A stretch of 64,000 bases of DNA from Nitrospinota bacterium (GTDB taxonomy: Bacteria; JADFOP01): contig JADFOP010000003.1 of NCBI GenBank assembly GCA_022562795.1, positions 1-64,000 of the forward strand, read 5' to 3'. Below, one piece after another: positions 2,079 to 12,390 of this stretch. The position numbers and the translations under genes were made by a program. Every line of letters begins with the position of its first letter. The stretch's first letter is position 1. Under the pieces are notes generated by a model. It had not been told where the DNA came from and did no database searches. It saw only the letters and a list, made by a program, of their open reading frames with translations.

Positions 2079-4733
2079 TCACGGCCCTTCGGCCTCCACC
2101 AGGGCGATCTCCTTCTTGGTGAGACCATAGAGGCGGTAGACGACCAAGTCGAGAAGCTCCCTTGTGCGGCCTATCTCGACTTGTATGGCCTCTACGGCCT
2201 CGCGGTAGGCGGCGAAGTCCTCGGCGAGCTCGCGCCGGGTGGCCTCGTCGGCCCGCCCCGCCTTCGGCTCCAGGAGCCGCTCCCACTCTTTCGCCTCAAG
2301 GCTCCGCGTGCGGCCGCTTAAGGCCTGTTGGACCTCTTCGGCACCCAACAGCCCGCGGGCCTGGAGGCCGTGGATGAGCTCGTCTGCCTCACTCGCCTCC
2401 TCTGCGCTCAAAGCCGAGACGCGCCGCCCGACCAGCGCAAGGGCCGCCGCCAGCATCGCTCTGGCCTCCTTCCCGCCGCGGGCCGACATCAACTCAACCT
2501 CCTCCTCCAGCGACCGTCCCGCATCGAGTAGCCCCTCGGCGAAGCCCTCCAGGGACTCAACCGCCTCCGGCTCATCCGGGGCCTCAGGCTCCCATACGAT
2601 GGGCAGGCCGTCGAGCTGGTACTTTTGGACCTCGGGGAAGATGCTGGCTTTCTTGGTCGTCCACCACACCCCGAAGTAGCCAGACATAAGTCGACTGTTA
2701 AGGCAGGCCGCCAGGTAGTAGGGCCCAATGCGACGCCCCGGACGGGGTATGACTGCGTAGAGATTTTTAAGGAAGTGGTGCCCCGCCTCGTCCACCGTAG
2801 CCAGCAGCGTGGGCGCAACCCGCCGGACCAGCACCCGCCAGGGCCTCCGCACAAGCCCCGCATAGGCGTCTAGCTCGGAGCGAAATCGGTCAATCCGACC
2901 TGAGGGCATGGGAGGGGCGAAGGCGACCACCTCGGCCCCCACAAGCACCGGCACGGCCCGGCGGCCGCCGAGCAGCGCCCGGCGGCCGAGCTCAATCCCC
3001 CGCCGGCTCAGGCAGATGTGGCCCAGAGGTACGCCGCGGGCCTGGAGCTTTTCGGCCAACGCGAGCCACTCCGGGGTCAGGGCGAGGTTGAAGGCCGCGT
3101 GGGGCAAGCGGGCAAAGGTTGCCTGTGGGATGCTTGAGGAGCGGACCGTCTGGCCCTCGTCGTTCCAGGCGATGATGCGGCAGGTCTCCTCCCCCGTAGG
3201 AGGGGAGGCCTGGATGATGAGGATCGCGCACTCGGTCTGCACCCCCTTGAAGGGCCGCCCGGCGTCGATTATCGCCACGAGCCCCCCCTCGCCGAGCAAC
3301 CGCTCCCTAAGGGGGCCCAGGGAGCGGTTGAAGCAGAAAAATCGAGGGCAAATGACCCCAAGGCGCCCGCCGCGCTTGAGGAGCCTGAAGCCGAGCTCGA
3401 GGGTCATAACGTAGAGGTCGCCCGGGGCGGTGAAGCGACGCCGGAGGAAGGCCCGCTCGTCATCGGGAAGCGTGGAGGCCACAACGTAGGGGGGGTTGCA
3501 CACTACAGCGTCGAATCCTCCTGCTGCGAAGACCTCTGGGAAAGCCAGCTCCCAATGGAAGAACCGCTTGGTGCGGGCCAGCCGGGCCGCCTCGACGAGC
3601 CACGGGTAGTCGTCGGGGACGAGCATCCCCTTTTGGGCCTGCTCCAGGGCCTGGCGGTAATCGGCGGCCGGAAAATCCAGGCCGAAGGCGGCCGCCAGGT
3701 GTGCGTCGGCCAGCCGCTCGGCGGCTACCCCAGGAGGCGGGGGAGGGAGGCCCTCATGAGCGAAGAGTCCGACCAGCGTTGGGGAGCCGGGCGGGTCGGT
3801 CGTAATCTCGGCCCGGCTCACCCCGAGCAGGGCGTTGCCGCACCGGATCTTGCCGGTGAAATCGGTCCAGCCGCTCCCTCCCACCTCTAGCATGAGCGCC
3901 GCCCGGGCGAGCTCCACGGCCACCGGGTCGACGTCCACGCCATGGAGGCACCCGTGAGCCACCTCCCTCAGGGTTTCGGGTCCCGGCGTCGTGCCTTGAA
4001 TCGCCGCCCAACGCGCGCTCAGCCGTTGGAGAACCCATACGAGGAAGTGGCCCGTGCCGCATGCCGGGTCTGCGATCTTGAGCGCTAGAAGGTCCTCCGG
4101 GGCGCGGGAGGCGGCCAGGTGGCGGCCCAAAGTAGCCTCAACGATTGTCTCGATGATGTGCGCAGGCGTGTAGAAGCTACCCCGACTACGTCGTCGTGTG
4201 GCGTCGGGCTTCAGACGTATCGGCGCCCCACGGCGGGCCACGGTGGGGATCCGGCCCAGAAGCGCCTCGTAGAGCTCGCCAAGCCCTCGGACGTCTCCCT
4301 CCCCCTCGGCCAAGGGAAGCACCGCCTCCCGGAGGGCCTCCAGCGATGCGTCTTCCACCTCAAGATCTGGCTCGTGGAGGAGTGGGGCGATCTCTGACCT
4401 TAAGAGGCTTCCCGGGTAGGGATCGAGCCCAAGGCTCCGGTGTCCCCCTTCGAAGAGGGTCCAGCTTGCCCGCAGCTGCTTCCACGACAGACCCACCCCG
4501 GTGAGCACCGAGGTCCGCTTCCGCCAGGCCTTTTTCGAGGTCGGCAGAAGGCCCCTGGCCTCGAAAAGGGCCACGGCCGCCAACCGCAAGGCCGCAACCG
4601 TGCCGGCTTGTGCCAAGGCCTCCAGCTCCTCGGCCCCCAGGGCGGTTTTCTGGGAGGCGCGCAGGCCTCGGGCTAGGTCGTTAATGAGCGCCTCGGTGGC
4701 GGAAATAATGGAGCGATAGGTTCGGTGCGCCAT
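2079..4733 (-). CDS. Eco57I/TaqI-class adenine DNA methylase (type IIG-like restriction-modification protein)
   Basis: This 884-residue protein is an N6-adenine DNA methyltransferase. SAM motif I (ADPACGTGHF) lies at residues 221-230 and the catalytic NPPY at 413-416. They are preceded by the characteristic RGSFYTP (184-190) and FHWELAFPEVF (392-402) segments. The C-terminal part (GPYYLAACLNS through YQLDGLPI) resembles the TaqI-like target-recognition domain. The N-terminal 170 residues are helical and show no clear PD-(D/E)xK nuclease motif. No separate nuclease, specificity or BREX gene is adjacent. It could be a type IIG fusion with a divergent nuclease or an orphan methylase. The ATG at 4733 is the first in frame. 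Confidence 0.8.
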   Translation of the reverse strand: MAHRTYRSIISATEALINDLARGLRASQKTALGAEELEALAQAGTVAALRLAAVALFEARGLLPTSKKAWRKRTSVLTGVGLSWKQLRASWTLFEGGHRSLGLDPYPGSLLRSEIAPLLHEPDLEVEDASLEALREAVLPLAEGEGDVRGLGELYEALLGRIPTVARRGAPIRLKPDATRRRSRGSFYTPAHIIETIVEATLGRHLAASRAPEDLLALKIADPACGTGHFLVWVLQRLSARWAAIQGTTPGPETLREVAHGCLHGVDVDPVAVELARAALMLEVGGSGWTDFTGKIRCGNALLGVSRAEITTDPPGSPTLVGLFAHEGLPPPPPGVAAERLADAHLAAAFGLDFPAADYRQALEQAQKGMLVPDDYPWLVEAARLARTKRFFHWELAFPEVFAAGGFDAVVCNPPYVVASTLPDDERAFLRRRFTAPGDLYVMTLELGFRLLKRGGRLGVICPRFFCFNRSLGPLRERLLGEGGLVAIIDAGRPFKGVQTECAILIIQASPPTGEETCRIIAWNDEGQTVRSSSIPQATFARLPHAAFNLALTPEWLALAEKLQARGVPLGHICLSRRGIELGRRALLGGRRAVPVLVGAEVVAFAPPMPSGRIDRFRSELDAYAGLVRRPWRVLVRRVAPTLLATVDEAGHHFLKNLYAVIPRPGRRIGPYYLAACLNSRLMSGYFGVWWTTKKASIFPEVQKYQLDGLPIVWEPEAPDEPEAVESLEGFAEGLLDAGRSLEEEVELMSARGGKEARAMLAAALALVGRRVSALSAEEASEADELIHGLQARGLLGAEEVQQALSGRTRSLEAKEWERLLEPKAGRADEATRRELAEDFAAYREAVEAIQVEIGRTRELLDLVVYRLYGLTKKEIALVEAEGP

Positions 4734-4936
4734 GGGCCCCTACTGGTTGAAGGGAAATCCTCTGAGGGAATATACCGAAGTATACCGGAAAAGGGGGCTC
4801 ATCGGGTAGTAGGCGGAAGAAAAAGCTTTGGGTATTTGCCCTTGATGGGTGTTGCGGGCCCCGCGTCATCTTGAAAGAAGGTGAACGGGTACCTAGATTA
4901 TAGATGGCGAAAATCCCTCAAGGAGGACCGGCCCTA

Positions 4937-5422
4937 ATGGACCTGGACCATTTGCCCCATGATGCTCGTGAGTTGTTTGAAGAGGGGTTTGAACATCACC
5001 AGGCGGGTGACCTCGAGCAAGCCATCGAGTGCTACCGTCAGTCCCTGGAGGCCGCTCCGTCGGCCGAAGCTCACACCTTCCTCGGATGGGCTTTCAGCCA
5101 CCAGGGAGAATTGGATACCGCCATAGAAGAGTGCTTCAAGGCCATCGATGCGGACCCCGCCTTCGGAAACCCGTACAACGACATCGGCGCCTATTACATA
5201 CAGCTCAAGCGCTATGATGAGGCCATTCCCTGGCTTGAGCGGGCCATGGAGGCCGAACGCTACGAGAGCTATCACTTCCCCCACCTCAATCTGGGGCGGG
5301 TGTATCTCAAGAAGGGTATGTTTTTCGAAGCCATTAGGGCGTTCGAGAAAGCCATCGAGATCGAACCACGCTACGAGATGGCCCGCATGGAGCTGGCCAA
5401 GCTCCGCGCCATGATGAACTGA
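4937..5422 (+). CDS. TPR repeat protein
   Basis: This 161-residue protein consists of about four tetratricopeptide repeats with the W/Y-LG-Y-A-F-P consensus (for example LEQAIECYRQSLEAAPSAEA and AIRAFEKAIEIEP). TPRs act as protein-binding scaffolds. The start chosen is ATG 4937, preceded by AGGAGG at 4921-4926; an in-frame ATG at 4904 lacks a well-placed ribosome binding site. No signal peptide is visible, so it is probably cytoplasmic. It stands alone between the methylase (divergent) and the metal operon. No specific partner can be named. Confidence 0.85.
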   Translation: MDLDHLPHDARELFEEGFEHHQAGDLEQAIECYRQSLEAAPSAEAHTFLGWAFSHQGELDTAIEECFKAIDADPAFGNPYNDIGAYYIQLKRYDEAIPWLERAMEAERYESYHFPHLNLGRVYLKKGMFFEAIRAFEKAIEIEPRYEMARMELAKLRAMMN

Positions 5423-5519
5423 CCCCCAAAGCGTCTCCCCCTATCCGGTCGGGTCGGCCGAGGGCAATGCCGAGGGGTGGCACACCGTCCGGGTGGAGGT
5501 CTTCTGCGCGTTTTTCCTC

Positions 5520-5549
5520 TTGTAACTCCCTATGATGCTCTTATATATT
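5520..5549 (+). promoter_or_regulatory. Putative sigma70 promoter of metal/redox operon
   Basis: TTGTAA at 5520-5525 and TATATT at 5544-5549 are separated by 18 nt. They lie 31 nt upstream of the ATG at 5581. The -10 element is good and the -35 element is weak. Confidence 0.4.
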
Positions 5550-5580
5550 AGCTGAAGAACCTCCCCGGCGAGGAAGCGCT

Positions 5581-5916
5581 ATGCGCCCCGGAAAGACCAA
5601 ACTGTTAGTTTTAATCCTGATGGCATCCTTCCTGGTGTTTGGGGTGGTCTGCGTCGGACTCGATGTCGGTCACGCCGATTCGCACGACGCTCAATCCGGG
5701 CATGGTTGCTATTTCCTTGCGTTATCTAATACGAACGGTATCAATCCCATTCAGTCGATGACACTCTCCATGGTTTCCACGCTCGTAATCGGTCTGCTAT
5801 CGGTGAGCCTCTCCTTACCATCGGCCCGCTATCGTCACCTGATCCTTCATGCCACACCTCTTAAGAACTTGCCTCTCAAGCGGCGCCTCGCCCTTCTCCA
5901 AACCTTTATCCAGTAG
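5581..5916 (+). CDS. Small membrane protein upstream of multicopper oxidase
   Basis: This 111-residue protein has an N-terminal hydrophobic segment (about 8-28) that could be a signal anchor. A short His/Asp-containing loop (HADSHDAQSGHGC) follows, then a second membrane segment (about 57-80) and a basic tail. GAGG sits 7 nt before the ATG. I do not recognise a named family. The layout resembles small uncharacterised membrane proteins found in copper-resistance operons. Its position at the head of the multicopper oxidase/TolC operon and the His-rich loop suggest a metal-related role, which is inference. Confidence 0.55.
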   Translation: MRPGKTKLLVLILMASFLVFGVVCVGLDVGHADSHDAQSGHGCYFLALSNTNGINPIQSMTLSMVSTLVIGLLSVSLSLPSARYRHLILHATPLKNLPLKRRLALLQTFIQ

Positions 5917-6067
5917 GACCTTTCCTTAGAGAGTCAGGCTCTACCCACAAGAGCATCCTTATACCGGCAGGCTGGGTTTCGCTGGAGGGAAAGAGCCCAT
6001 CGGCAAAAACCAAGGTCAGACGTAGTAGTAAGGTGCCCGGCGAGTCGGGCGCCAAGGAGGAGATTTC

Positions 6068-7495
6068 ATGACAAGGAAGAAACCATCAGACACGTCGTCT
6101 TTGGGAGGGAGTCCCATGAGGATATCTGTCTCAACCCTCAAAGGCGCACTGGTCGCCGGAGTGGTAGCATCGGCCCTCGCCTTGGTCTCCCCATCAGCGG
6201 CGCAGGCCCAGCAGCACGAAGGGACGCACATGCACGGTGCAGCCCCTCAAGGGACGATAAAATCCGGCGCCAAGCCTCACCATGAGATGCCGCACGGTCA
6301 CATGCAGCATGGGGAGCGGCCCCATGGCGGAATGAAGCATGGCGAGATGATGCACGGCATGGGGCAGCAGGCCGAGATGAAACACGGCGCGATGGGCCAT
6401 GGGGGAATGGCCATGCACCAAGCCACTGGGTGGGAGAATCCCGATATCCCCCCCTCGCCGCCGCCGCCGCTAATGGGCCGGCAGATGGGGCGGGTCGTCG
6501 CTCCCGGAGTACCCCCGCTTGGATACGAAATGGACGGTGACGTCAAGGTCTTCCGCATCGTCGCCCAGCCCGTGAAGATCTTCCTCAACGACGGTCGCTC
6601 GAAAGATGATTCCATCGAAACCATCGTCAATGCAGTAAACCGCTATACGGGCGTGATGATGCACCACCCGGTCTCCCAGCCGGTCCGGGCCTGGGGTTAC
6701 AACGGCACCTCTCCGGGGCCGACCATCGAGGTGACCGAGGGAGACCGGATCCGCATCATCTTGACGAACGAGCTTCCAGAGCCGACATCCATTCATTGGC
6801 ACAGCATTGAGCTGCCCAACTCCCAAGACGGCGCCGGCGGCGACACCGAGCCGCCCACCATGCCCGGCGAGACCCGCGTCTACGAGTTCACCCTCTATCA
6901 GTCGGGGACCTTCATGTATCACACGGGCTTCAACGTGATGAAGCAAGATTCCCTTGGGCTTGGTGGGATTCTCGTCGTCCACCCGAAGAGGCCGAAGCAC
7001 AAAGTAGATAAGGATTTCACCATCATGCTACAGGCGTGGGCGCTCCTGCCAGGTAACCCAAACCCTAACCTCGTAACCATGGACTTCAATTGGTTCACTT
7101 TTAACGGTAGGTCTGCGCCCGACATCCCAGTGCTGACCGTCAAGCAGGGCGAGCGGGTACGCATCCGCATCGCTAACCTGAGCATGGACAGCCACCCCAT
7201 CCACATCCACGGCTACACGTGGAAAGTGGTTGGTACCGAGGGAGGGCCCATTCCCGAGGGTGCCCAATGGCCCGGCACCACCGTCAACGTGGCGCCCGGG
7301 ACGACCCGCGATGTGGAGTTCGTCGCATGGAACCCGGGGGTGTGGCGCTTCCATTGCCACAAGCTCCACCACCTAGTAAACGCCCACGCAGATGTGCCCA
7401 TGGGTGTGATGCCCCACGGAGGGATGTTTACCCTCATCCACGTAATCCCCAAGGACCCGGCTTCCGCCTGGAAGCATCCGAAGCAGAAGGGATAG
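6068..7495 (+). CDS. Multicopper oxidase with His/Met-rich N-terminal region
   Basis: This 475-residue exported cupredoxin protein probably oxidises Cu(I) or another metal or organic substrate and reduces O2 in the periplasm. A strong AGGAGG lies 7 nt before ATG 6068; a second in-frame ATG at 6116 begins a cleaner Sec signal ending AQA-QQ. Residues 50-118 are His/Met-rich (repeated MHG, MKHG) and suit copper binding. Copper motifs are HWH (243-245), HPIHIHG (376-382) and HCHKLHH (429-435). The second HxH motif reads YHTG (284-287), so one expected His is missing. It precedes the TolC-cytochrome gene by 13 nt, indicating one operon. Confidence 0.85.
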   Translation: MTRKKPSDTSSLGGSPMRISVSTLKGALVAGVVASALALVSPSAAQAQQHEGTHMHGAAPQGTIKSGAKPHHEMPHGHMQHGERPHGGMKHGEMMHGMGQQAEMKHGAMGHGGMAMHQATGWENPDIPPSPPPPLMGRQMGRVVAPGVPPLGYEMDGDVKVFRIVAQPVKIFLNDGRSKDDSIETIVNAVNRYTGVMMHHPVSQPVRAWGYNGTSPGPTIEVTEGDRIRIILTNELPEPTSIHWHSIELPNSQDGAGGDTEPPTMPGETRVYEFTLYQSGTFMYHTGFNVMKQDSLGLGGILVVHPKRPKHKVDKDFTIMLQAWALLPGNPNPNLVTMDFNWFTFNGRSAPDIPVLTVKQGERVRIRIANLSMDSHPIHIHGYTWKVVGTEGGPIPEGAQWPGTTVNVAPGTTRDVEFVAWNPGVWRFHCHKLHHLVNAHADVPMGVMPHGGMFTLIHVIPKDPASAWKHPKQKG

Positions 7496-7508: not shown

Positions 7509-9272
7509 ATGAGAACGAAACAGGTTGGAATGGGGCTAGCTATAGCTATCGCCTTCTTGCTCGCGGGCTGCGCAGGCGTCCAGACGGACAAGGAGTGGGG
7601 GCGGGTCGAGACCTTCGTGAAGGAGAGGGCCGGTGCCAAGGCGCGGTGGGAGCAGACGAAGGAAGACGGCCAGGCCACGCATGCCGAGGTCAATGCCATG
7701 CTGGCCGATGGGCTCACCCGCAAGGAGGCGGTGCAGATCGCAATTTTGAATAACCGAACCCTGCAAGCGGCCTTCGAGGAGCTGGGCGTGGCGAAGGCCG
7801 ACCTCGTCCAGGCCGGCTTCTTCACCAACCCAAGAATCGACGGGCTGGTCCGTTTCCCGACCAAGGGCGGCGGGACCAATGTCGAGGCAGGGGGGCTCGT
7901 CAACCTCGCAGACCTCTGGCAGATTCCCCTTCGCAAGCGACTCGCCAAGACCCGCCTGGAGGCCGCGACACTCAGGGTGACGGACGAAGTTTTGAATACG
8001 GTGGCCGAGGCCAAGGGGTTCTACGACGACATTCTTGCCCTGGCCGCCGCTCGGGACGAGACGGCGCGGGTTCTCAAAGCCTTGGAAGATCTGCGCGACC
8101 GGATTGCCCAACGGAAGGAGCATGGCTACACGAGTGACTTCGACGTCGCTTTCGCCCGTGCGGCCGTCTTCGACCAGAAGGCGGCCCTGGTGCGGGTCGA
8201 GGGGGAGTTGCGGGTGGCCAGCACCCGCCTCAGCCGCGTGCTGGGGCTCACCCCGGAGCAGGCCGGGTACACCTTGACCGGTTCGTTGCCGGACGACATA
8301 GGGGGTCCTATCCCAGATACCGAAACCCTGGTGACTCATGCTCTGGCCCAGCGGCCCGACGTCCAGCTGGCGGAGCTGGAGATTTCCATCTCCGAGCGGG
8401 CCATGGCCCTGGAGCAGGCCCGCGTCTTCACCGATATCGAGGCGGGGGCGGCGTTCGAGCGCGAGGCCGAGGGGGGCGAGCTCGTGGGTCCAGCCTTGGG
8501 CCTCCAGTTGCCTGTCTTCGATCAAAACCAGGCCCAGATCGCCAAGGCCGCCTATAGGGTCCGGCAGGCCCAGAAGCAGCGGCAAGCCCTCGTAGGGATG
8601 GTCTACGAGGAGGTGGCCGCCGCCGCCGAGCGCCTCGCCGTGGCCCGCCAAGATGCCATGATCATACGAGACCAGGTTCTGCCGGCCTACCAGGATGCCA
8701 TCGACTACGCGGAGAAATACTCCGGCGCAATGCAGCTCAACATGCTGTTCCTCCTGGAGGCTCGAAAGGAACAGGTCGCCAGCAGCCGCCGATACATCGA
8801 CGCCCTTCGAGAAGCGCGGGCGGCGGAGGTTGACCTGGAGCGGGCCCTGGGCGGAGTCATGCCGAAAGGTGCGATGCAAAGTTCGATGAAGCACGGCCAT
8901 GCGGCTATGCCCCATGTAGTGGTGAGCGCCAAAGGGAGAGCAGCGGCGGGAAAGGCGATTTACCAGCGCCTCTGCGCCTCCTGTCACGGGGCTTCAGGCA
9001 AGGGCGACGGCCCAGTCGGTCGTTCCTTGACCCCAAAGCCTATCGATTTCACAGTCCATTCACGACACCACAATGATGAGTACTTTTTCAAGGCTATCCA
9101 GGAGGGGGGCCCCGCCGTGGGGAAGTCCCCCGTCATGCCTGCGTGGGGTGGCCAGCTAAAAGACGAGGAAATCTGGGACGTTATCAGCTACATTCGGGCT
9201 CTCGTAAAGGGCGAGGGGGAAGCTGGGGGGGATATGCCGGCACACCACCCTCATCACGGGGGCGGTCATTAA
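7509..9272 (+). CDS. TolC-family outer-membrane efflux lipoprotein fused to cytochrome c
   Basis: This 587-residue protein begins with a lipoprotein signal (lipobox LLAGC, Cys21). It continues as an outer-membrane efflux protein of the TolC/CusC type, with two long coiled-coil-rich repeats up to about residue 455. After a His/Met-containing linker there is a class I cytochrome c domain: the haem motif CASCH is at 489-493 and the probable axial Met, in SPVMPAW, is at 543. The tail is His-rich. The frame is uninterrupted, so this is a true fusion. TolC proteins form export channels; the haem suggests coupling to electron transfer, perhaps from the multicopper oxidase partner. No inner-membrane RND or adaptor gene is adjacent. 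Confidence 0.85.
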   Translation: MRTKQVGMGLAIAIAFLLAGCAGVQTDKEWGRVETFVKERAGAKARWEQTKEDGQATHAEVNAMLADGLTRKEAVQIAILNNRTLQAAFEELGVAKADLVQAGFFTNPRIDGLVRFPTKGGGTNVEAGGLVNLADLWQIPLRKRLAKTRLEAATLRVTDEVLNTVAEAKGFYDDILALAAARDETARVLKALEDLRDRIAQRKEHGYTSDFDVAFARAAVFDQKAALVRVEGELRVASTRLSRVLGLTPEQAGYTLTGSLPDDIGGPIPDTETLVTHALAQRPDVQLAELEISISERAMALEQARVFTDIEAGAAFEREAEGGELVGPALGLQLPVFDQNQAQIAKAAYRVRQAQKQRQALVGMVYEEVAAAAERLAVARQDAMIIRDQVLPAYQDAIDYAEKYSGAMQLNMLFLLEARKEQVASSRRYIDALREARAAEVDLERALGGVMPKGAMQSSMKHGHAAMPHVVVSAKGRAAAGKAIYQRLCASCHGASGKGDGPVGRSLTPKPIDFTVHSRHHNDEYFFKAIQEGGPAVGKSPVMPAWGGQLKDEEIWDVISYIRALVKGEGEAGGDMPAHHPHHGGGH

Positions 9273-9384: not shown

Positions 9385-10290
9385 TTAGGCGAGGTATTTT
9401 CGGAGGCCTTCTTCAAGGCTCATGAACCGGATGCCGAAGGTCTCTTCGGTGGGCTGGGGGTCTACGAGGGCCTCGCCGGTGACGAACTCCACGGCCTGAG
9501 GTGTCATTGGAGGGGTGGGTAGGAGCTGGAAAGGCACCGTCGCCAGCTTCATGAAGCCCACGGGATGGTGGATGAGGCGTCGTTTTACCCCCAGAATTCG
9601 CTGGACGGTCAGGAGCACCTCGTCCATCGTGAGGACCTCTGGCCCTCCGAGCTCGAAGAGGCGATTGGTTGCCTCCTCCAGGCCAACCGCGCCCGCCGCC
9701 ACCGTCGATACGTCAGAGACGAAGACCGGCTGGATTCTCGACGTCCCGTCACCGATGACGGGCACGAAGGGAAGCGTCTTTGTGAGGGTTATTAACTTGT
9801 TGAGGCTTCGGTCCTCAGGCCCGTATACCCACGAGGGGCGAAGTATGACGTACTCCATCCCGCTTTCTCTTACCGCCTCCTCCGCGATGGCCTTTGCACG
9901 AAACCAGCTTTTGTCCGAGGTCGAGCTTGCCCCCGCCCCTGAGAGGTAGATGAACCGGCGCACCCCGTTGGCGGCCGCCGCCTTGACCATGCGGCTTGTG
10001 CCTTCGGCGTCTATCTCCATGTAGGTGAACCCTCGGCGGGGGACCTCCACCGGGTGGTTGGGAAACTGGACGGTGTGTATGACGACCTCAACCCCTCTCG
10101 TGGCCTCGTCGAGACTCGCCTCGTTGCGGACATCGCCCGGAACGAGCTCGACCTGCTGGGCCCAGGGGCTTGGCCGGTCGGAATTTCTTGTCATGCACCG
10201 CACAGTGGCCTCTTGCTCTGTCATCCCCAAGAGGTCATCGATGATGTGCGATCCGAGGAACCCCGTCCCGCCTGCAACTAGAATGGTCAT
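9385..10290 (-). CDS. NAD(P)-binding SDR protein (NDUFA9/NmrA-like)
   Basis: This 301-residue protein has an N-terminal Rossmann fold (VAGGTGFLGSHI, the GxxGxxG motif). A VIHTVQFP strand and a YLSGAGAS segment follow, the position where extended SDRs carry Ser. The YxxxK pair is not obvious: the region reads SWFRAKAIAEEAVRESG. That places it with the atypical SDRs related to complex I NDUFA9 or NAD(P)H-binding NmrA-like sensors. These act in redox or lipid metabolism or as nucleotide sensors, so the substrate is not predictable. It is a single gene, convergent with the metal operon. Confidence 0.75.
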   Translation of the reverse strand: MTILVAGGTGFLGSHIIDDLLGMTEQEATVRCMTRNSDRPSPWAQQVELVPGDVRNEASLDEATRGVEVVIHTVQFPNHPVEVPRRGFTYMEIDAEGTSRMVKAAAANGVRRFIYLSGAGASSTSDKSWFRAKAIAEEAVRESGMEYVILRPSWVYGPEDRSLNKLITLTKTLPFVPVIGDGTSRIQPVFVSDVSTVAAGAVGLEEATNRLFELGGPEVLTMDEVLLTVQRILGVKRRLIHHPVGFMKLATVPFQLLPTPPMTPQAVEFVTGEALVDPQPTEETFGIRFMSLEEGLRKYLA

Positions 10291-10371
10291 GAGAGCTACC
10301 CTCCTTCGCCCCTTCGCCTCACCGACTTTAACTGTCTAGAAATGACCTACATCAGTCCCCGCGTACCTTAG

Positions 10372-10391
10372 TTGACGGATTTTTTCGTCAA
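10372..10391. promoter_or_regulatory. Palindrome in divergent intergenic region
   Basis: TTGACG and CGTCAA are arranged as an inverted repeat around an 8-nt T-rich spacer. They lie between the divergent SDR gene and the small plus-strand frame. It could be an operator or a small hairpin; nothing distinguishes these. Confidence 0.3.
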
Positions 10392-10474
10392 AGCCGTAAG
10401 AAGGACCTTGCTTCGTTCGTCATAGGAGGTGGACCCCGTGTGAGTTATCAGCCGCCATGAGAGGAGACCCACCG

Positions 10475-10651
10475 ATGAGCCGTTCTCCTAAATCACCCCC
10501 TAACAACCAACCCCGAGTGCGCACCCTCATCAGGAGCAGCTTGCCTAAGGGGAAGGTGATCATCGTCTCCCGAGGGCATCAACGGGCCAATTTTATTAGG
10601 AAGCTGCCCCCGTGCCTTAAAGCCCATCGGGTCACTAGAATCGTCCCCTGA
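10475..10651 (+). CDS. Possible small basic protein
   Basis: A 58-residue basic, Pro/Ser/Arg-rich frame begins with ATG at 10475. It has a good ribosome binding site (GAGGAG at 10461-10466, 8-nt spacing). No family is recognised and there is no membrane segment. The well-placed site is the main argument for it being real. The opposite strand also has a short open frame here, so the assignment is weak. Confidence 0.3.
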   Translation: MSRSPKSPPNNQPRVRTLIRSSLPKGKVIIVSRGHQRANFIRKLPPCLKAHRVTRIVP

Positions 10652-10743
10652 ATGCCCGTCCGTCCCGGAGGGTCGTATCGGCATCCCCTTGGGCGAGCCG
10701 CCCGGAAAAACCCTTGGGAATAGAGCAGCTGCAACGAATTCCG

Positions 10744-11205
10744 CTAACCGACCTTCGCCCCCTTCTCCACGTGCTTCTTAAGAAGTGTTAGTACCGTTTC
10801 GTAGTCCTCTCGGGGCAGCGAGTGTACGTTACCCTGAAAGCCAAGCCGCCAGTGCTCATCGGGCCACTTCTTCAGGTGCTGGAGCTTGTGGCGGATGGGC
10901 TCGACGGCAAGAAAGTCTCCCGCCTCGCAGACAATCTCCGGGCGGACCTCAAACCGGAAGGGGTAAATTTCCTGCTTTTTTCCGCCGTCCCAGACGGGTT
11001 CGTCGCTCTCGAAGAAGGTGCTGGTAACCTCGGCGCATCCTCCGAATGCCTGGACTTTGGTTAGGTAGAAGACCACCTTGTCGCCTGGCTCGACCCGCTC
11101 GGCTTTCTTTCGATGTCGGCTCTTCATCCCCGCGATGTCGAAGCCCCGAGTACGGGAGCGCTCGAAATTTTCTTCCGAGCTTACGAGCATCCAGTAAGTT
11201 GGCAT
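10744..11205 (-). CDS. EVE-domain protein
   Basis: This 153-residue protein is a single EVE domain (PUA-like fold, UPF0310/ThyA-like group). Hallmarks are the YWMLVSSEENFE start, the GDKVVFYLTK strand, a gating aromatic region and the WRLGFQGNVHSL C-terminal segment. EVE domains bind modified bases in DNA or RNA, and many are associated with restriction or RNA modification. It ends a minus-strand run behind the AcuC-like gene with a 54-nt gap. The nearby methylase is separated by several genes, so a functional link is only a possibility. Confidence 0.8.
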   Translation of the reverse strand: MPTYWMLVSSEENFERSRTRGFDIAGMKSRHRKKAERVEPGDKVVFYLTKVQAFGGCAEVTSTFFESDEPVWDGGKKQEIYPFRFEVRPEIVCEAGDFLAVEPIRHKLQHLKKWPDEHWRLGFQGNVHSLPREDYETVLTLLKKHVEKGAKVG

Positions 11206-11259
11206 GTCAATGTCCTCCTCAAAGGGTGGTGGATAAGGGAAGCTTAGAACCTCCTCGCC

Positions 11260-12390
11260 TCATGACCTCCAGAATGGAAAGAGTTTTTGTTTGTGGTGCG
11301 TGATGATGCGGTCGGCCTCGGCTTTTGCTTCGGTGACCATATCGGGCCGGCCTGGAAAGGGAGCGTCACGGAGCTTGGAGCCTTCGAGACCCATCCGGCC
11401 GAGAAGTGCCACGAAATCCTCTGGTAAAGAGTCGGGAGGGTCGGCGTCGTTGAACATCGCCCAGGCAAGCGTCCAGGCCCGGGCCACGTTGACCATGTCG
11501 TAGCCCCCGCCGCCCAGGGCCAGGAGTTTCGGGGCCAGTCCCATAATCTCGTGGACCATTTCGCAAAATCCGTTTGTCGTGCAATCGAGCTGGGCGAGGG
11601 GGTCGGAGTGGAAGGTGTCCACACCGAGCTGGGCCACCACGATGTCTGGCCGGAAGGCCCTAACCAGCGGAACGATGCCCTCCTTGAATGCCCCCACGAA
11701 GACGGCGTCGGTGCTGTGGGGGAGGCAAGGAATGTTGACACAATAGCCCACTCCTTGACCTTCACCGATCTCATCCTCAAATCCCGTCTGAGGGAAGAAA
11801 TACCGGCCCGACTGGTGGATGCTGGCGGTAAAGACTCGGCTGGTGTCGTAGAAGATGTTCTGGACTCCGTCACCGTGGTGGGCGTCGATGTCGATGTAGG
11901 CCACCCTCCAGCCCTGCTCCGTTAGCCAGCGGATGGCGATAGCGGCGTCGTTGAGGTAACAGAAGCCGCTGGCCCGCTCCGGCATTGCGTGGTGGAGGCC
12001 GCCGGCGATGCTGAAGGCGATGTCCACCTCACCCTCGTAGAGGAGTCGGGCTCCCATGATGGAGCCGCCGGAAGACAGGAGCGACCAGTCCCAAAGCCCC
12101 GGGAAGACGGGGTTATCGCCGGGCCCCAGGCCGTAGTCGTGGGCGCCCCGCGTCATCTTCCCGTTATTGACTGCCTGAAGGACATCGACGTACCTATGGT
12201 CGTGGACCGTGAGGACGTCGTCAACTGAGGCCGCTTCGGTCTCAATTAGGCGAGACCCTGTAAGCTCGAAAAGCCCGTAAGAGCGCACGAGCTCGTAGGT
12301 GAGCTTCAACCGCACGGTCTTCATGGGATGGGCTGAGCCGTAATCGAACCCAGCGAGCCGGTCGGTGTAAATGAACGCTGTTGACGCCAC
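11260..12390 (-). CDS. acuC: AcuC-like histone deacetylase family protein
   Basis: This 376-residue zinc-dependent deacetylase belongs to the arginase/HDAC fold. Visible active-site motifs are the His-His pair in GGLHHAMP, the zinc ligand segment DIDAHHGDG and the downstream GVDTFHSDPLA. The tail holds GGGGYD, where the catalytic Tyr follows the glycines. AcuC-type enzymes deacetylate acetyl-CoA synthetase and other acetyl-lysine substrates in the cytoplasm. It lies 10 nt after the stop of the unknown 278-residue gene, so the two are probably cotranscribed. A second, shorter deacetylase is at 18649-19515. The symbol rests on family resemblance. Confidence 0.85.
   Translation of the reverse strand: MASTAFIYTDRLAGFDYGSAHPMKTVRLKLTYELVRSYGLFELTGSRLIETEAASVDDVLTVHDHRYVDVLQAVNNGKMTRGAHDYGLGPGDNPVFPGLWDWSLLSSGGSIMGARLLYEGEVDIAFSIAGGLHHAMPERASGFCYLNDAAIAIRWLTEQGWRVAYIDIDAHHGDGVQNIFYDTSRVFTASIHQSGRYFFPQTGFEDEIGEGQGVGYCVNIPCLPHSTDAVFVGAFKEGIVPLVRAFRPDIVVAQLGVDTFHSDPLAQLDCTTNGFCEMVHEIMGLAPKLLALGGGGYDMVNVARAWTLAWAMFNDADPPDSLPEDFVALLGRMGLEGSKLRDAPFPGRPDMVTEAKAEADRIITHHKQKLFPFWRS

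Follow-up and report, generated by a model that had tools for sequence, protein, structure and literature searches.

Several described systems share parts of their make-up with the locus analysed here. In the PcoA/PcoB (CopA/CopB) systems, a periplasmic multicopper oxidase (MCO) works alongside a protein of the outer membrane. The unit in the window (by which we mean the whole analysed stretch of 64,000 nucleotides) likewise combines an MCO with an outer-membrane partner; however, this partner is a TolC-type channel, and the MCO scores far below the cut-off of the CopA/PcoA model TIGR01480 (135.6 vs. 478.95 bits). The Ag/Cu RND efflux channels SilC and CusC, which are among the nearest solved structures, share with the window channel both lipoprotein character and the TolC fold, but the window channel is only ~17% identical to them, has no CusA/CusB-type genes beside it and carries a C-terminal cytochrome. 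The small class I cytochromes c552 (PDB 9vr0, 7o9u) resemble this cytochrome in having a single CXXCH motif and an axial Met, and most of the domain matches them significantly in sequence; yet their solved chains, of 125 and 153 residues, come without a channel, whereas in the window this domain forms the C-terminal end of a channel protein of the outer membrane. In Nitratiruptor sp. SB155-2, a Cd/Cu-induced cluster contains the SO_0444 transporter, a cytochrome c and TolC (PMC10092412). As described, this cluster is a precedent for cytochrome c and TolC genes occurring together, although there the genes are separate and no MCO is mentioned (PMC10092412).

Pairs of a TolC-family gene and a copper oxidase gene on Burkholderia/Paraburkholderia plasmids (L118, L120) and in Criblamydia (L119) are like the window in that homologous MCO and TolC-family genes are adjacent. 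They differ in that the TolC gene comes first and the MCO gene second, the YHxH motif of the MCO is kept, no cytochrome was found nearby and the set of copper genes is richer. A literature search found no fusion of TolC with a cytochrome c.

A channel and a cytochrome in one reading frame

The preliminary description had reported one frame with a lipobox, a complete outer-membrane efflux protein (OEP), a CASCH haem domain and an axial Met, located 13 nt after an MCO gene. Translation of the window, Pfam searches and motif inspection confirm each of these elements, including the coordinates and the 13-nt spacing (Table 1); the 587 codons contain no internal stop, and GGAGA lies 9 nt before the ATG start codon.

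Table 1 Features of the unit in the window and the evidence on which each assignment rests.
Feature	Position	Strand	Evidence
Small predicted membrane or exported protein, 111 aa	5581..5916	+	48% identical to the same-place protein in L033 (L033:7850-8197)
Two-domain multicopper oxidase, Met/His-rich N-terminal stretch, YHTGFN in motif 2	6068..7495	+	Cu-oxidase_3 and Cu-oxidase_2 (Pfam), motif alignments
Fused gene, TolC-family lipoprotein and class I c-type cytochrome, 587 aa	7509..9272	+	Open frame, Pfam domains, structure model
Lipoprotein signal peptide, lipobox LLAGC, lipidated Cys21 expected	7509..7571	+	Sequence; GC(A/V) kept in relatives
OEP/TolC channel domain, ~residues 73-452	7725..8864	+	Pfam OEP; TolC fold of the model, SilC (9rmm) best solved match, CusC (3pik) also matched
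Linker, fusion site, ~residues 453-474	8865..8930	+	MPKGAM vs. MPHGAM (L033); low pLDDT at 463-473
Monohaem class I cytochrome c domain, ~residues 475-566	8931..9206	+	Pfam; c552-type solved relatives; dN/dS 0.37 vs. L033
Haem-binding motif CASCH, residues 489-493	8973..8987	+	Sequence motif
Expected axial ligand Met543, in SPVMPAW	9135..9137	+	Sequence, alignment
His-rich disordered C-terminal tail	9219..9269	+	Common to the L033 cytochrome; absent from the stand-alone paralogue

The Pfam OEP domain was matched in two stretches, both above the curated cut-off (116.3 bits vs. 22), and the region of ~477-564 matched Cytochrome_CBB3 (56.2 bits, cut-off 27) and Cytochrom_C (51 bits, cut-off 21.3). 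The C-terminal part passes the Pfam cut-offs and has a CXXCH motif followed by an axial Met, as is characteristic of class I c-type cytochromes; CXXCH and SPxM are conserved across the aligned cytochromes, except that L011 has SNLM instead. The lipobox and its Cys21 predict an N-terminal lipid anchor, as in the CusC/SilC channels. When compared with the NCBIfam models, the fused protein scored below the cut-offs of both TIGR01844 (TolC; 40.5 vs. 225 bits) and TIGR01845 (NodT; 38.7 vs. 210 bits), as did the relatives of the MCO-TolC pair.

In the monomer structure model, a confident TolC fold (pLDDT mostly above 90 in the OEP part) extends to ~residue 450 and is followed by a short, Met/His-containing linker, uncertain at residues 463-473, and then by the cytochrome, modelled as a domain of its own with moderate confidence (pLDDT ~55-85). 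The solved structures closest to the model in fold are SilC, OprN, OprM, TolC and CusC. The domain scores together with the structure model are far beyond what chance would give.

Upstream of the MCO gene lies a gene for a small protein, a putative member of the unit, whose N-terminus is hydrophobic and which matched neither Pfam nor NCBIfam models.

Separate genes in the sister species and the probable origin of the fusion

The only same-genus genome compared with the source genome (2.15 Mb, 97% complete) is G001, which contains the corresponding locus L033 (JALLOF010000028.1, Nitrospinae bacterium; Nitrospinota). Here, the genes for the small protein, the MCO and the OEP (9778-11145) are followed by a separate cytochrome gene (11172-11762), which begins 26 nt past the OEP stop and whose product has a signal peptide of its own as well as a stretch rich in Met and His, and then by an opposite-strand NAD-binding epimerase-like gene that is also the next gene in the window. 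Because the OEP and cytochrome genes of L033 are separate and only 26 nt apart, the fusion most likely arose in the window lineage, by removal of the OEP stop codon, of the spacer and of the signal peptide that the cytochrome had. If it were not fused, the cytochrome of the window would be left with no evident export signal.

The fused domain is 55% identical to the neighbouring cytochrome of L033 and 51-55% identical to the paralogues, so that identity alone does not decide orthology. Nevertheless, the fused domain is best read as the orthologue of the L033 cytochrome, given that it occupies the same place, that the linker retains MPKGAM as a diverged remnant of the MPHGAM in the Met/His-rich stretch of the L033 cytochrome, and that both proteins share the His-rich tail, which the stand-alone paralogues in both genomes lack. 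Between the window and L033, the cytochrome has changed faster than the other two parts, with dN/dS of 0.37 (0.19-0.60), a value that spans the time before the fusion as well as after it, compared to 0.23 for the OEP and 0.08 for the MCO core.

In L033, a codon-aligned 9-nt direct repeat, TTGGGCGGG, occurs at the end of the OEP gene (11119-11127) and within the cytochrome signal peptide (11238-11246). Recombination at an L033-type repeat would yield an in-frame join and may have been the route to the fusion. In addition, the sequence encoding the Met/His linker of L033 (11309-11398) is a diverged 15-nt tandem repeat; along with the 9-nt repeat, this makes a deletion-prone layout that could explain the fusion.

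Search for further fusions

In a search of 386 genomes spread over the domain, no second OEP-cytochrome frame was detected, and neither was one found in 195 genomes of one phylum, in 396 genomes of another phylum or in the plasmids that were searched as well. The sampled genomes total ~970, and the source phylum is represented by three genomes; a few candidates per genome were scored under strict E-value limits, such that rare or divergent fusions could escape. Among 80 relatives of the OEP in GTDB genomes, the fusion occurs in none, and only L033 has a matching cytochrome beside the channel gene. On this sampling, we reject the possibility of a fusion family spread over phyla. The notion of the fusion as a conserved device is not borne out either: no other genome searched yielded it, and in the sister species the two genes are distinct.

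Long open frames that matched a cytochrome or an OEP were inspected, and none proved to be an OEP fusion: in L129, the cytochrome follows a membrane-protein-like stretch; in L018, it follows a low-complexity upstream frame; L124 is an OEP without CXXCH; and L009 is a multi-haem protein. The frame in L009 (G050:C20:168500-169741) consists of three tandem copies of a cytochrome domain of the same kind, with Ala/Pro-rich linkers between them.

Copper context of the MCO-TolC pair

The pair of MCO and TolC-family genes is itself ordinary: it recurs in adjacent positions across several phyla, and on Burkholderia plasmids it lies inside copper-resistance clusters. On the Burkholderia/Paraburkholderia plasmids, the pair is accompanied by CopC, CopD, a copper-binding protein, a heavy-metal two-component system and a P-type ATPase; in Criblamydia, by a CusA/CzcA pump, P-type ATPases and a four-helix copper-binding protein; and in G010, by a metal-sensitive repressor and a sub-threshold HMA match. 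Few of the pairs have a cytochrome alongside. A scan of the immediate neighbours of the window unit revealed no gene for CopC, CopD or a P-type ATPase. Since homologous pairs sit in copper-resistance contexts, copper is, by association, the likely substrate, and the unit as a whole probably handles copper or a related metal.

Other genes were seen next to such pairs. After the pair in L005 (2905-3306) and in L189 (~3.7 kb past the MCO start), there is a gene for a small Cys-rich protein with a weak DUF326 match, which resembles the four-helix copper-binding protein annotated by the pair in Criblamydia. Downstream of the pair in L035, a YHS domain and a carbohydrate phosphorylase domain are encoded in one frame (4103-5923).

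Proposed working and alternative explanations

On balance, we favor the view that the locus is a lineage-specific, in-frame fusion of two neighbors in a copper-handling unit that consists of an MCO, a TolC-family lipoprotein and a periplasmic monohaem cytochrome c. Under this proposal, the MCO would oxidize periplasmic Cu(I) to Cu(II), and the channel would let metal out of the periplasm, either alone or with a pump encoded elsewhere. The lipoprotein signal of the OEP would now export the cytochrome as well, which would hang from the C-terminus of the channel on the periplasmic side, with three cytochromes per trimer if the channel is trimeric like TolC. The tethered haem, with its His/Met-rich flanks, might be reduced by Cu(I) or by the MCO and then feed electrons into the respiratory chain. 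We regard any electron transfer in which the MCO or copper takes part as somewhat doubtful. The source genome has genes for cytochrome c assembly, which makes it plausible that the haem is loaded.

The C-terminus of TolC is periplasmic, and the haem would accordingly be tethered under the outer membrane and not outside it; with this predicted topology, a single periplasmic haem gives no wire across the membrane. The preliminary description had suggested a link between metal efflux and electron transfer at the outer membrane. The metal part of this suggestion gains from the copper context of the homologous pairs and from SilC and CusC being among the nearest solved channels, whereas transfer across the membrane does not fit a periplasmic C-terminus. 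If confirmed, the protein would be a TolC-type channel bearing its own redox center and would hint at a coupling of metal export to periplasmic electron transfer in these bacteria. The sister species, in which the genes are not joined, allows the states before and after the fusion to be compared in nature.

Separate genes in a close relative had been named beforehand as a sign that two genes were joined by the assembly. Such genes were indeed found in L033, the only close relative, and the fused joint rests on one assembly; an artefact of assembly or binning nevertheless appears improbable. The joint lies inside an 89 kb contig, and the order of the flanking genes on both sides of the unit is the same as in L033. 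Moreover, the join is in frame, it has no direct repeat in the window that could have collapsed, and the diverged remnant in the linker, the retained tail and the constraint on the cytochrome, together with the synteny, favor a genuine fusion. We hold with high confidence that the fusion is real, and our overall assessment is that of an unusual but recent, single-lineage fusion of neighboring genes within a known kind of unit. A real fusion could still be functionally neutral, with an ordinary periplasmic carrier now tethered to an unchanged channel. This we consider unlikely, if by some way the most serious of the alternatives: the fusion is present in one species while the sister species manages without it, the genome retains a second, stand-alone cytochrome of the same kind, and one small deletion, of the sort that the in-frame repeat of L033 would allow, could remove stop, spacer and signal peptide at once. 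On the other hand, both halves are intact and constrained and the haem ligands are kept, in a comparison that mixes time before and after the fusion.

It seems very improbable that the channel works chiefly with drug-type RND pumps whose genes lie elsewhere, with the MCO and the cytochrome unrelated to transport. The source genome was found to contain just two OEP genes and two clear RND pumps; no CusA-type pump or adaptor genes adjoin the channel gene, the two pumps lie on other contigs that carry no OEP match, and they fit drug-type models better than CusA/CzcA, all with scores below cut-off. However, the other OEP (on C5) fits the TolC model far better than the fused protein does (103 vs. 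40 bits), and MCO-TolC pairs persist in copper contexts in different phyla, both of which speak against this reading.

A histidine missing from the multicopper oxidase

The MCO core is 91% identical to that of L033. Multicopper oxidases are expected to have four copper motifs with complete HxH pairs. In motif alignments, the window MCO departs from this in one of them: motif 2 reads YHTGFN (~residues 280-297), with Gly in place of the second His, and the other copper motifs are present. At the position of this Gly, the YHSH motif of laccases has its second His, which is a type-3 copper ligand. The structure model of the MCO, with a mean pLDDT of 63 from 9 sequences, is too weak to judge the copper site.

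In the MCO tree, the window protein falls within a group of nine with strong support (100/100), in all of which the MCO gene precedes the TolC gene. Eight of the nine (the window, L033, L034, L035, L036, L090, L189 and L190) have G or E for the second His of motif 2 (YHTG, YHAG, YHSG or YHGE), and L037 keeps the histidine; among the pairs in which the TolC gene comes first, YHxH is retained wherever the motif was read. The loss of the histidine thus appears to be clustered, but, with L037 inside the group, a single loss is not implied.

This loss is a more general lead than the fusion, and the histidine-less clade makes it testable whether oxygen is still reduced or electrons are passed to the cytochrome. 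It is conceivable, if quite improbable, that MCOs of this clade reduce oxygen poorly, oxidize Cu(I) and deliver the electrons to a cytochrome c, here attached to the exit channel, so that copper detoxification would be coupled to respiration and not to direct oxygen reduction. A general association of cytochromes with histidine-less MCOs was considered and set aside as weak: cytochrome genes lie near three of the eight (the window, L033 and L034), with two of the contigs too short to tell. In L034, two CXXCH genes precede the MCO gene, one of which encodes a Pfam cytochrome c.
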